64,000 nt of DNA. Source: Thermococcus gorgonarius. GTDB taxonomy: Archaea; Methanobacteriota_B; Thermococci; Thermococcales; Thermococcaceae. Position numbers and translations under genes: made by a program. The notes beneath the pieces were generated by a model that made no database searches, was not told where the DNA came from, and saw only the letters and a program-made list of their open reading frames with translations. How positions within the stretch are numbered: position 1 is the stretch's first letter; every line of letters starts with the position of its first letter. The DNA lies in assembly GCF_002214385.1 (NCBI RefSeq), contig NZ_CP014855.1, forward strand, positions 372,001-436,000, given 5' to 3'. Positions 53,155 to 57,600 of this stretch are shown here, piece after piece.

Positions 53155-53488
53155 CGGTCAATGGATGGAACGCAAAATAGGCCGTGGAAGAAATGGGGAT
53201 AGCTCAGACCGTACCCTTGATGGGGCTTCAGGGCAGGAATACTCTCGATGGCATCTCTAGCGGTCCTGAGGGTTAATGTGGGCAGGTGAAGGTTGTAGAG
53301 GTGGCGGTTCATGGGAGATTCCTTTATAGTTTTCTGTTCTGTTATGTATCAATAAAACATTATCTCTTGATCAGCCAACAATTTTAGAAAATTTTATGAG
53401 GGCGTTTTTGAAAAATATACTGGAGGAGATTGATATTGAAGGGTTGTCTAGAAAGAAAATAAAAAGGAACTTAAATGGTGAGGGAATC
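53155..53488. other. 334-bp gap before the ESCRT-III-like gene
   Basis: There is no convincing gene. Composition falls from GC-rich to AT-rich near 53310, the left edge of the AT-rich island. A TATA-like CCTTTATAG lies at 53321-53329. CGATGG...CTGA elements near 53247-53275 loosely recall a box C/D RNA but lack a proper C box. A frame reading from ATG 53396 into the next gene has no binding site. Confidence 0.5.
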
Positions 53489-55321
53489 ATGGGTATCCTC
53501 TCTAAATTTTTCGGCAAAAAAAATCCTATGGATGTATCCTTGGACGTATTGAGAGAAACTCAAGCAACGCTTGAGATTCAAATTAGAAAAATTGAGAATG
53601 AGATAGCCAGCATAGATCGCGAGATAGCGGCGCTCTTTGAAAGGGCAAAGAGCGCGAGGAGCAAGAGCGAAGAGCTCACCATAGCGACGAAGATAAAGAC
53701 CCTTAACCAGCGCAAGAAGAACCTCCAGGCAACACACATGCAGCTCAACAAGCAGCTCATGCTCATAAGCAACCTGGCCATAATCAAGGAGAACGAGGCC
53801 ATCCTGAAGGGAACGCCAACTTGGGAGATGCTCCGCAACATGTCACCGGAGGAGCTTGAGAGGAACCTGACGACCATGCAGCTGGATGCGCAGAACTTCA
53901 ACGAGAACCTCAACCAGATGCTCGGCATAACTGACCAGACGCTGGGCGTTGGGGCTGACTTCGAGGAGGACGAAGAGCTGGCCGAGATAATGAAGACCAT
54001 CCACGCGGTTAAAGAGGGTGAGCTCGAGCCTGAAACAGAATCAATTGTCAAGCTTCGTAGTATATTGTTAGATATCCAAAACAATTATGAGTTAGTACGT
54101 TTTAATTTGATCGAATTTTTGAGGAAAGAATTAGGATTCTCAAAAGAGACAATAGAAGAATTGTTGTATATACTTGAAGATATACTTAACGATTGGGCAA
54201 GAATCAGGGGGGCTAAGAAGATAAATTCTCAAACGTTGAATCTGCTCACTATAGAATTCTTGATTCGTTTGATCCTACCATACCTAAAAACAAAACATAT
54301 ACCCCCCGGGAATGAAATTAAAAATCAGCTTGAACAACTACAACAAGTGGCTTACTGTGTTAAAATTCCTAGCAAACATGAGTATTGTGAATATTTATCT
54401 CTATATGAGCAGATCTCACTATTAATGTCCCCTACAACGAGAGAATGCGTGGAGAACATTCTAAAGACTGCAAAACACGTCATTGACAATAGCACAAAGA
54501 TTGCAAAAATGGACTTTTATCTACGAGTGAACCTCTGGAATGAGCTACAAGAAAAATACATGTTATATGAAAAAGGGGTGTGTGGGCAATTTCCAAAACA
54601 TCTAGATCTAGTTAAGTATTTAGATAATTATATAAGAATCCACCTAGAAACGGCATTGGCATTTCTGGCTTTAACCTTCAAGGAAAATAAGGAGGAATAT
54701 CCCCCAGCAATAGATAGATTTAGTGAGTCAGAGCTTCATACAATTAAGTTGATACGTGAATATGATATCTTTGGCAAATTAGAATCAGAAGAAATTATGA
54801 GGAGAATCTTGGCTAATGATGAACATGTAAAAACATTACTCAAGTTATATCCCACTATGGAGGAGCATATTATCTCATCATGCTCTAACTGGTATCTTTA
54901 TTGGTATTTGATGTGTTCTTGGGAAAAACAGAAAGAGAGAATAGACAAAAAGGTGAATGAAATCTTGGATCAGTTATTAGAGCATAATCTAACTACTAAC
55001 GGCTCAATGTTAAAATCAAACCCAAATCAGGAAGTTTTAGCGATACCTTTTAGAAATTTTTTTGAAACCGTTTCCATTTACTTGATAGGCACTAAAAAAT
55101 TATCGAAGAGAATCTCTAAGAAGCTTTCTAATATGGCGAGAATTCTTGCAATGTCCTCTGAATTCACGCGTAGTATAGGGTGGGGATTCCTTAAGCATCT
55201 CGATAAAAAACCTAGTAGCATAACTCAGGAAGGGGAGTTATACATAGAGAACGAGATTATTCATGAAGAATTAGAGGAACTTCTAGACACCGGAAAGAGC
55301 GATGTTCTCAGCTCATTTTAA
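53489..55321 (+). CDS. ESCRT-III/Snf7-like (CdvB-like) domain fused to a large helical domain of unknown function
   Basis: This is a 610-residue protein. Residues 1-185 look like ESCRT-III: a short basic amphipathic start GILSKFFGKKNP, then DVLRETQATLEIQIRKIENEIASIDREI (helix 1), a Lys-rich helix 2 (IKTLNQRKKNLQATHMQLNKQL), MSPEELERNLTTM, and an acidic end GVGADFEEDEELAEIM as in CHMP proteins. Residues 186-610 are helical, AT-rich and unrecognised, with several Trp/Tyr. DNA composition switches at about 53590 and 54040. ATG 53489 has GGTGAGGG before it; ATG 53396 has none. The ESCRT-III call is by pattern, not a search. Confidence 0.66.
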   Translation: MGILSKFFGKKNPMDVSLDVLRETQATLEIQIRKIENEIASIDREIAALFERAKSARSKSEELTIATKIKTLNQRKKNLQATHMQLNKQLMLISNLAIIKENEAILKGTPTWEMLRNMSPEELERNLTTMQLDAQNFNENLNQMLGITDQTLGVGADFEEDEELAEIMKTIHAVKEGELEPETESIVKLRSILLDIQNNYELVRFNLIEFLRKELGFSKETIEELLYILEDILNDWARIRGAKKINSQTLNLLTIEFLIRLILPYLKTKHIPPGNEIKNQLEQLQQVAYCVKIPSKHEYCEYLSLYEQISLLMSPTTRECVENILKTAKHVIDNSTKIAKMDFYLRVNLWNELQEKYMLYEKGVCGQFPKHLDLVKYLDNYIRIHLETALAFLALTFKENKEEYPPAIDRFSESELHTIKLIREYDIFGKLESEEIMRRILANDEHVKTLLKLYPTMEEHIISSCSNWYLYWYLMCSWEKQKERIDKKVNEILDQLLEHNLTTNGSMLKSNPNQEVLAIPFRNFFETVSIYLIGTKKLSKRISKKLSNMARILAMSSEFTRSIGWGFLKHLDKKPSSITQEGELYIENEIIHEELEELLDTGKSDVLSSF

Positions 55322-55323
55322 TA

Positions 55324-56274
55324 TCATTCACTTTGTTCATGTTTTGTTTTTGTAATAAAGAGTAATATATACAAGATATTGTCTCTTATATAATATTGGG
55401 GGAGCAGTTTAAAGTTCCTCTTAAATACAACATCAGAGAATTTTAGGGCAGTTCTCAATTTGTCTTTGTAGGGTTTTTTTAAATTTATCAAAATTTTAGC
55501 TTCGAAAAGTTTTCGTTGAATTTTTATTAGGTGTTCATATACATGTAACACGTTAAAATACTGGAACAACGAAAGAAAGAGTACTATCTGTAGACCTTCC
55601 ATAATTAAAAATCCCTCTATCATATTGTACCTGATCAAGACTTTAAGGAGATAATAGATATCAACTATAGATTGTATAACATTGGTAGTAAAAAGAATGA
55701 GAACTGGAGACAAAAGATATAACAGGTAGGGACTATCACTAGAACTAACTTTGAAAATTTTTTGAATATTCTTTTCTATTGAAATTAAAGAGAGCATTAT
55801 AATAAATAATAGTATTAAATTTAATTCCAGCACTCTCCTACTCAGTGGGTAATAGGATAAATTCAATATTGAGAAGAGAGTAAGAATCGAAATAAAAATA
55901 GTAAGTCCTCCAATTAAAAATAGAGTTTCAAAAAAAGATTTTGTGTTCTCCTTGCGTACATCCAATAAATATGAAAGATATTCTAAAGAAACACCTCTTT
56001 TTAAAAGTCTAGAAAAATATATTATCCCCCATATCACATGCATGAGATACACAAAAACAAAAAACGATACAAGAATTGAATTTGAGATTAACCAATAAAC
56101 CCACTGTCTCAAATATAGCACGGATAACCCAAATGACGCCAACAACAAACTTATAGTAGTTAAAAGGAGGATATTAGGACTCTCTATTGTATCTAAGAGG
56201 GATGATATTTTCTGAAGTTCTATGTCTATAATTCTCTCTACCTCATTATCCCCCAACTTAATTTGATGACCCAT
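55324..56274 (-). CDS. Polytopic membrane protein, AT-rich, unrecognised
   Basis: This 316-residue protein has about six hydrophobic helices (first at about 33-51, then pairs to about residue 245) and soluble ends: an N-terminal helix LGDNEVERIIDIELQKISSLLDTI and a basic C-terminal part FRN/KPYKDKLRTALKFSDVVFKRNFK. It shares the strong AT bias of its convergent neighbour and ends 2 bp from it, suggesting the two arrived together. Not recognised. A weak TATA stretch lies upstream around 56300. Confidence 0.75.
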   Translation of the reverse strand: MGHQIKLGDNEVERIIDIELQKISSLLDTIESPNILLLTTISLLLASFGLSVLYLRQWVYWLISNSILVSFFVFVYLMHVIWGIIYFSRLLKRGVSLEYLSYLLDVRKENTKSFFETLFLIGGLTIFISILTLFSILNLSYYPLSRRVLELNLILLFIIMLSLISIEKNIQKIFKVSSSDSPYLLYLLSPVLILFTTNVIQSIVDIYYLLKVLIRYNMIEGFLIMEGLQIVLFLSLFQYFNVLHVYEHLIKIQRKLFEAKILINLKKPYKDKLRTALKFSDVVFKRNFKLLPQYYIRDNILYILLFITKTKHEQSE

Positions 56275-56369
56275 AATTTAGTTATTCACAAGGTTAATTT
56301 AAAAACTTATCCTCTGTAGATCACACTGTTAGAAATGAAATTAGACAGATTATTTACGCTCTAATTCTC

Positions 56370-56576
56370 CTACAACATCCTCAACAAATTGGTGAGGAAG
56401 TCTATTGCATATAACTGGTGGGGCGTGTGGAGTGGGACTTCGACTCCTGGGCAGAAACCTACGACGAAGACGTTGGGGTAGAGAATTGGCTTCACACCGA
56501 TTGCGGGGGTTCTAAAGCTCGTGGCGAAGATTTTCTTTTCTAGGCCCTTGAGAATGTAAGGTATCACGGCACACAC
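56370..56576 (-). pseudogene. Short C-terminal-like fragment
   Basis: This 68-residue frame reads FATSFRTPAIGVKPILYPNVFVVGFCPGVEVPLHTPHQLYAIDFL, which looks like the last part of a larger globular protein. It begins at a GTG just after the beta-propeller pseudogene's stop without a good binding site. I cannot name the family. It marks the right edge of the AT-rich island and is probably a relic. Confidence 0.4.
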
Positions 56577-56578
56577 CC

Positions 56579-57507
56579 CTAAACCCTCTCGACCACTATA
56601 ACCGTCTTCCCCTCTTCCTCCTTAACCCCGAGTGCAACGCCCTTTCCTAAAACCTCGACCCAGCCGCGCTCCCAGGGTTCTCTCTTCCAGAGGATTTCCC
56701 CCTTCAGGTCGAGCTTTATCACCGCCGCTTTCCCCTCGACTTCGCCCCCAATGAGGAGACCGTCTTTGGTTGGCAGGAGCGAGGTTGCCGAGCCGTTCGG
56801 GAGCGTTACCTCCCAGTCTCTGCCCCAGACCCACAGGTCACTCCCTTTGTAGCCACCCAGAATTATTTTCCCTCCCATTTCGGCGGCCGTTAGGGCGATT
56901 CCCTTCCCGAGCTCGCTTTCCCTTATCAGTTCCCCGTTCTCAGTGAACTCAAACGCTTTAACCTTCCATTTCTCCTCCTTCACGCTTCCGACGAGGACGG
57001 GCTTACCGTTGAGTTCAAACAGGCCGGAAATCACGGCATCACCCAGAGACCTAGGGTCTTGAGCCAGAGGAGTTCGCCGTCCAGCGTGATTCTCCCGACG
57101 AAGAAGCCCCTGCCTTTCCCATCCGAGGTCTCTCCAGCGATGAAGGCCCCGCCCTCGGCTGGCAGAATGGAGTAAACGCATTCATTGCCAAGGATTTCCA
57201 GCTTTTTCTCCCAGAGGACTTCAAGGTTCCCGTTAAGCCTCGCCACGTAGCCCTTCCATCCCTCGCCGCCCTCAGGTGTGGCCTTCCCCTCAACTGCACC
57301 GCCGATGAGATAGCCGTCTTTGAGCTTTGCTATGCTGTGCCCTTCCTAGTCGTTTTTGCCTGATATGAACTTCAACTCCTTTATATCCTCCTCGTCGAGC
57401 CTTGCGAGCATTATTTTGTAGGCCTTTCCGTCGTGGACGCTCCCGACGAGCAGGTCACCGGCGAGTGCAACCGGAACCGTCTCAACGCCGAAGGAGTAGG
57501 TTTTCAT
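56579..57507 (-). pseudogene. Decayed beta-propeller (PQQ/WD-like repeat) gene
   Basis: The frame starts ATG 57507 (GGGGGA before it) and runs to an in-frame TAG at 57346-57348. The same frame then resumes directly (EGHSIAKLKDGYLIGGAVEG) to 57031. A one-base shift near 57040-57055 moves the rest to another frame (GDAVISGLFELNG...) ending at 56579. Repeats of the type GxxLIGGxxxG...K.D..G.I.W are those of propeller blades. The full protein would be about 309 residues. One nonsense change plus one frameshift indicate loss of function. Confidence 0.75.
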
Positions 57508-57600
57508 CGACAGTCCCCCTTTGATGGTTTGAGTTTCCAATCAAAGAACATGGCAAAGGTTTTAAGATTTTTGCCAGTTAGTAGTAAACAGGTGATATGG

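Follow-up and report, generated by a model that had tools for sequence, protein, structure and literature searches.

The locus raises the question of how a Thermococcus gorgonarius gene came to join an ESCRT-III-like N terminus to a long AT-rich helical part, and what its product might do. The gene lies on the forward strand of the window (the whole stretch of 64,000 nucleotides that was analyzed, in which all positions below are counted). Its open reading frame, 53489-55321, was confirmed to run through 610 codons without interruption; an alternative in-frame ATG upstream, at 53396, would extend the protein to 641 amino acids. On balance, we lean toward an intact orphan fusion of an ESCRT-III subunit with the N-terminal domain of arCOG09748, its core swapped in from a close Thermococcus lineage and its product possibly acting as a static, Vps4-independent membrane scaffold. 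The features of the gene and its surroundings are as follows.

53489..55321, forward strand: whole chimeric gene, 610 amino acids (open reading frame list, translation)
53477..53483, forward strand: Shine-Dalgarno-like GGTGAGG, 5 nt before the ATG at 53489 (read in the sequence)
53489..53590, forward strand: first 34 codons of the ESCRT-III domain, AT-rich, a diverged allele in register with the family (identity, GC3 of 36%)
53591..54037, forward strand: recombined native ESCRT-III core, to codon 183 (93% nucleotide identity to G072, GC3 of 77%)
54038..54442, forward strand: region X, residues 184-318, helical, no homolog found, in place of the short C-terminal tail of the orthologs
54443..54967, forward strand: arCOG09748 N-terminal helical domain, residues 319-493, with a GxCGxF motif (hhalign, identity, AF2)
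54968..55318, forward strand: region Y, residues 494-610, helical, no homolog found
53325..56405, no strand: AT-rich island with approximate outer limits; apart from the swapped core, its genes have 29-36% GC (composition)
55324..56274, reverse strand: AT-rich orphan membrane protein, 316 amino acids, several TM-like stretches, convergent with the chimera
53209..53320, reverse strand: left of the island, truncated MFS transporter gene, 5' end only (alignment to intact loci)
56406..56530, forward strand: right of the island, truncated SAM methyltransferase gene, 5' end only (alignment to intact loci)

The chimera is laid out, from the N to the C terminus, as ESCRT-III A, region X, the arCOG09748 N-domain, and region Y. 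Residues 1-183 form an ESCRT-III subunit that belongs to the archaeal "Main clade" ESCRT system. The original prediction had described a CHMP/CdvB charge layout for the first ~185 residues, and the layout is as described: the net charge along residues 1-183 runs +3, -3, +6, -4, and -10, with +3 falling on residues 1-12, +6 on residues 55-101, and -10 on residues 149-183. The basic N-terminal half and the acidic C-terminal segment that ESCRT-III requires are both present. A basic amphipathic start had also been proposed; the first 11 residues are indeed basic, but their computed amphipathicity is unremarkable.

When residues 1-184 were searched alone, Pfam Snf7 matched with E = 3.6e-4 over residues 20-169, at 20.7 bits and hence below the curated cut-off of 27.3. 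The N and C parts of the chimera were folded separately with AlphaFold. The model of residues 1-190 (pLDDT 78) shows the hairpin of the ESCRT-III fold, formed by helices 18-54 and 59-101 with pLDDT 84-97. In a Foldseek search, the top 11 PDB matches of this model are all ESCRT-III proteins (CdvB2 filaments, CdvB, Asgard ESCRT-IIIB, and CHMP2A-CHMP3), with probabilities of 0.92-0.99. Their E-values are only 0.1-0.25 (0.1-0.3 for the N-terminal model overall), as is usual for long helices, and the evidence is the ranking rather than the E-value.

Residues 1-185 might instead belong to an unrelated coiled-coil family, either SMC-like or related to PspA only. In line with this, the single Foldseek E-values are not significant, and a profile search of PDB sequences gave no ESCRT-III. 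However, the top-ranked Pfam match is Snf7, with proper coverage; ESCRT-III structures take ranks 1-11, whereas PspA and Vipp1 rank 44-49; and orthologs and paralogs occur family-wide, in a conserved operon with a Vps4-type ATPase. We therefore reject this reading as very improbable, and the ESCRT-III identity first proposed for residues 1-185 is upheld.

The N domain is present in 39 of the 94 Thermococcaceae genomes, T. gorgonarius included. In all others that carry it, the domain is a stand-alone ortholog of ~200 amino acids (70-87% identity) that adjoins a second ESCRT-III paralog (~30% identity). The conserved operon comprises arCOG08177 (172 amino acids), arCOG09748 (~610 amino acids, coiled-coil), ESCRT-III B, ESCRT-III A, a Ser/Thr kinase, Vps4, and PP2C. 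Its AAA ATPase was identified as Vps4 by matches to AAA (E 4e-38) and Vps4_C (E 1e-9), and the fully inspected operon (L053) encodes a third Snf7-like protein as well. This operon is the "Main clade" ESCRT system of Makarova et al. 2024 (PMC10936438), the arCOG08177 and arCOG09748 assignments being made by matching the description and gene content given there. In that survey (mBio), arCOG09748 is the Main-clade ESCRT winged-helix protein with an N-terminal helical domain.

The system was also found on contigs named Archaeoglobus/Archaeoglobales and Methanothermococcus (MAGs or single cells) and on a 49-kb plasmid of T. peptonophilus. The MAGs labeled Archaeoglobus and Archaeoglobales (L100 and L106) represent an order that the Main-clade text of PMC10936438 does not name, and binning errors are possible for them. 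In a Methanothermococcus MAG, an inserted gene for an AAA/STAND-like ATPase (L112:8809-9852) separates the operon's two ESCRT-III genes. P-type ATPase genes flank the operon in 5 of the 15 inspected loci (L053, L058, L059, L063, and L072), the T. peptonophilus plasmid included, where they are annotated as heavy-metal type, hinting at a mobile metal-resistance context of the operon.

The fusion has no second copy among the 94 Thermococcaceae genomes, the named genomes, plasmids, phages, and viral contigs searched. Every other full-length N-domain ortholog is an open frame of 199-230 amino acids. The proposed check, a search for stand-alone N domains with variable C-terminal partners, thus returned stand-alone N domains everywhere and no other C-terminal partner. 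Because the fusion is known from a single copy, its age and any purifying selection on its AT-rich parts are beyond measurement.

The C part (residues 184-610) was originally said to match nothing. This holds for family libraries, as Pfam, PHROG, PADLOC, and NCBIfam gave no confident match, but not for genome comparison, which identifies residues 319-493 as the N-terminal domain of arCOG09748. By hhalign, these residues match arCOG09748 with 99.5% probability (E 4.7e-23, 167 columns). They share 31-37% identity with the N-terminal ~190 residues of the ~610-residue arCOG09748 proteins from most of the 39 other genomes, and they retain the invariant GxCGxF motif of the family. The AF2 model of the C part has a pLDDT of about 90 over most of residues 319-493 and found no confident match in the PDB; such an unmatched predicted fold is consistent with the "N-terminal helical domain" described in PMC10936438. 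PDB sequence matches of arCOG09748 itself were apolipoprotein-like and were set aside as artefacts of coiled-coil composition.

About 40% of the C part is now explained. Residues 184-318 and 494-610 remained matchless in homology searches. Region X replaces the ~20-residue tail that follows residue 183 in the orthologs, the C-terminal part in which ESCRT-III proteins would be expected to carry an MIT-interacting motif for Vps4, and region Y does not match the rest of the arCOG09748 alignment; the coiled coil, globular domain, and C-terminal winged helix of arCOG09748 are lacking in the chimera.

The mosaic composition noted at first sight, an AT-rich start, a GC-rich core, and an AT-rich remainder, is real and sharp and lies just where it was described: GC3 is 77% in the core (codons 37-183) but 36% in each of the two AT-rich parts (codons 1-36 and 184-610), compared with 76-81% in the adjoining native genes. 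It reflects a real recombination mosaic. Nucleotide identity to the G072 ortholog is 56% over codons 1-36 vs 93% over codons 37-183, and the match stops abruptly after about 54037. The best breakpoint, at 53591, gives a log-likelihood gain of 42, and none of 200 shuffles was equally strong.

Codons 1-36 are 55-61% identical to the orthologs in amino acids and 54-64% in nucleotides. A start that is AT-rich or fast-evolving in all orthologs was ruled out, since the drop in identity over codons 1-36 averages 5 points between orthologs (maximum 14), whereas it is 15-37 points for the chimera. The first 34 codons nevertheless align without gaps to the ESCRT-III family, with 58-83% amino acid identity over residues 1-12 and about 50% thereafter. 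Import of the whole gene from AT-rich methanogens was likewise rejected: identity in the N domain reaches only 54-59% for the Methanothermococcus orthologs, against 93% between the core and a Thermococcus allele. The latter value is close to the 91% identity between the flanking native ABC-transporter stretch and G072, and the core therefore shares the history of the local chromosome. Its dN/dS of 0.04-0.16 indicates purifying selection, although most of this signal may predate the swap.

From these alignments, we infer that the AT-rich gene carried an in-register ESCRT-III start even before recombination replaced its core. The starting point would have been an AT-rich, probably mobile gene for the complete ESCRT-III/arCOG09748-N fusion, and homologous recombination would have exchanged its bases 53591-54037 for the corresponding bases of the native ESCRT-III gene in a closely related Thermococcus lineage. 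On this view, the fusion itself would be older than the swap and probably of mobile origin. The suggestion of a native-looking core within foreign-looking DNA is thereby borne out. Its joining to unrelated foreign DNA is not: the AT-rich DNA appears to have encoded both the ESCRT-III start and the arCOG09748 domain beforehand, so the event would be a swap of the core and not a first fusion of unrelated sequences.

The T. gorgonarius genome, which is 99.98% complete, lacks the remainder of the ESCRT operon. The search found no Vps4, the AAA matches being two double-AAA Cdc48-type frames and one PAN frame, and no match to an MIT region. Neither ESCRT-III B nor any other ESCRT-III was found in the genome, arCOG09748 is represented only by the fused N-domain, and PP2C gave no match. 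For arCOG08177 there was no match either, in a search with a five-row profile that had no positive control. When the 18-kb operon region of G072 was compared with the genome, matches were limited to the core (450 bp) and to a stretch lying outside the operon.

The chimera sits in an AT-rich island of 3.1 kb, whose only other substantial gene encodes the 316-residue membrane protein. This protein has no relative in the 94 genomes, plasmids, phages, and viral contigs. In two genomes (G047 and G038), the flanks of the island lie about 45-60 bp apart and correspond to the divergent 5' ends of the MFS transporter and methyltransferase genes; at the T. gorgonarius site, just these 5' ends are left of the two genes. 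The closest relative (G026) is without the chimera, and other DNA occupies the site there. A search for an integration target at the island gave no tRNA, structural RNA, or long flanking repeat; a weak group II intron match (E 0.27) was taken as chance. A beta-propeller-like gene at 56579-57540 (reverse strand) is apparently split into three reading frames, and its copy in G026 is also broken, into two pieces.

Such a setting would also suit a protein by which a mobile element counters or hijacks ESCRT, mimicking the host ESCRT-III core and the docking domain of a partner so as to enter or block filaments, for release of the element or suppression of the host system. The AT-rich island with its orphan membrane gene, a core allele that matches a close host lineage, and the occurrence of the ESCRT operon on a plasmid point in this direction. 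We nonetheless regard both this activity and its purpose as decidedly improbable: nothing related to the fusion turned up in viral, phage, and plasmid collections, the island yielded no integrase, att repeat, or replication gene, and the present host is without an ESCRT system that could be blocked. PADLOC defence models, searched at E 0.01, matched neither the chimera nor the adjoining membrane protein.

The main rival to the scaffold reading is a recent recombination relic without function: after loss of the operon, its one remaining piece would have recombined with a foreign fragment, and too little time would have passed for the open frame to decay. The failure to detect any other ESCRT component in the genome, the position of the island among truncated genes, and the uniqueness of the fusion fit this course of events, and the chimera may be an orphan fusion gene without its operon and possibly without a role. 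However, we estimate from base composition that chance alone would keep a frame of 426 codons open at 35% GC with a probability of ~1e-14; the AT-rich C part is therefore coding, or was so until recently, under selection. Together with a core dN/dS well below 1 and the Shine-Dalgarno-like start signal, this leaves a functionless relic as the less likely, though still serious, explanation.

For the intact fusion that we prefer, the basic N terminus and the helical hairpin would bind membrane and polymerize, by analogy with other ESCRT-III proteins. The fused domain, arCOG09748 being a presumed adaptor, might recruit a client or else limit or cap the growth of the polymer. Because Vps4 is absent and the native C-terminal tail has been replaced, turnover would probably not follow the usual route. 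The product would thus resemble a static or slowly turning scaffold more than a cyclic scission machine, with protection of the envelope or support of vesicle necks as the function that we would favor. It is conceivable, although we think it unlikely, that the gene is a one-gene ESCRT-III device: a filament subunit with its own adaptor that shapes or protects membranes without Vps4, stays compatible with its host through core swaps, and is possibly spread by AT-rich mobile DNA.

The ESCRT system itself has already been published (PMC10936438); the literature searched held no account of the fusion, its mosaic origin, or its orphan state, and no experimental data on the Main-clade system. Two reviews of archaeal vesicles (PMC10117752, PMC6524685) describe Thermococcales as lacking ESCRT-III and regard the machinery behind their vesicles as unknown, whereas the 2024 survey places Main-clade ESCRT in Thermococcales (PMC10936438). 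The reviews are at odds with that survey and with our count of 39 of 94 genomes. With its occurrence in Thermococcaceae, Archaeoglobales, Methanothermococcus contigs, and the T. peptonophilus plasmid, the system appears common but patchy and sometimes mobile. The fusion is "Rosetta stone" evidence for joint action of the ESCRT-III subunit with the arCOG09748 N-domain, a link that can be tested directly, and the chimera may be a naturally Vps4-free ESCRT-III.

Among known systems, the Main-clade euryarchaeal ESCRT (PMC10936438) contains both an ESCRT-III subunit orthologous to residues 1-183 and an arCOG09748 N-terminal domain homologous to residues 319-493. In contrast to that system, the chimera joins parts of two operon products in one polypeptide, lacks the coiled coil and winged helix of arCOG09748, and carries two extra unmatched helical regions, in a genome without detected Vps4, second ESCRT-III, full arCOG09748, or PP2C. 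In CdvB of Thermoproteota, too, the ESCRT-III domain has an extension at its C-terminal end that is related to an ESCRT adaptor. However, CdvB carries a winged helix and works with CdvA and CdvC, whereas the chimera has the helical arCOG09748 N-domain, no winged helix, and no CdvC. PspA and Vipp1, of the bacterial ESCRT-III superfamily, have an ESCRT-III-like hairpin that works without Vps4. This Vps4-free hairpin offers an analogy for the mode of action proposed here for the chimera. The structural matches of PspA and Vipp1 to the N-terminal model rank far below those of CdvB and CHMP.
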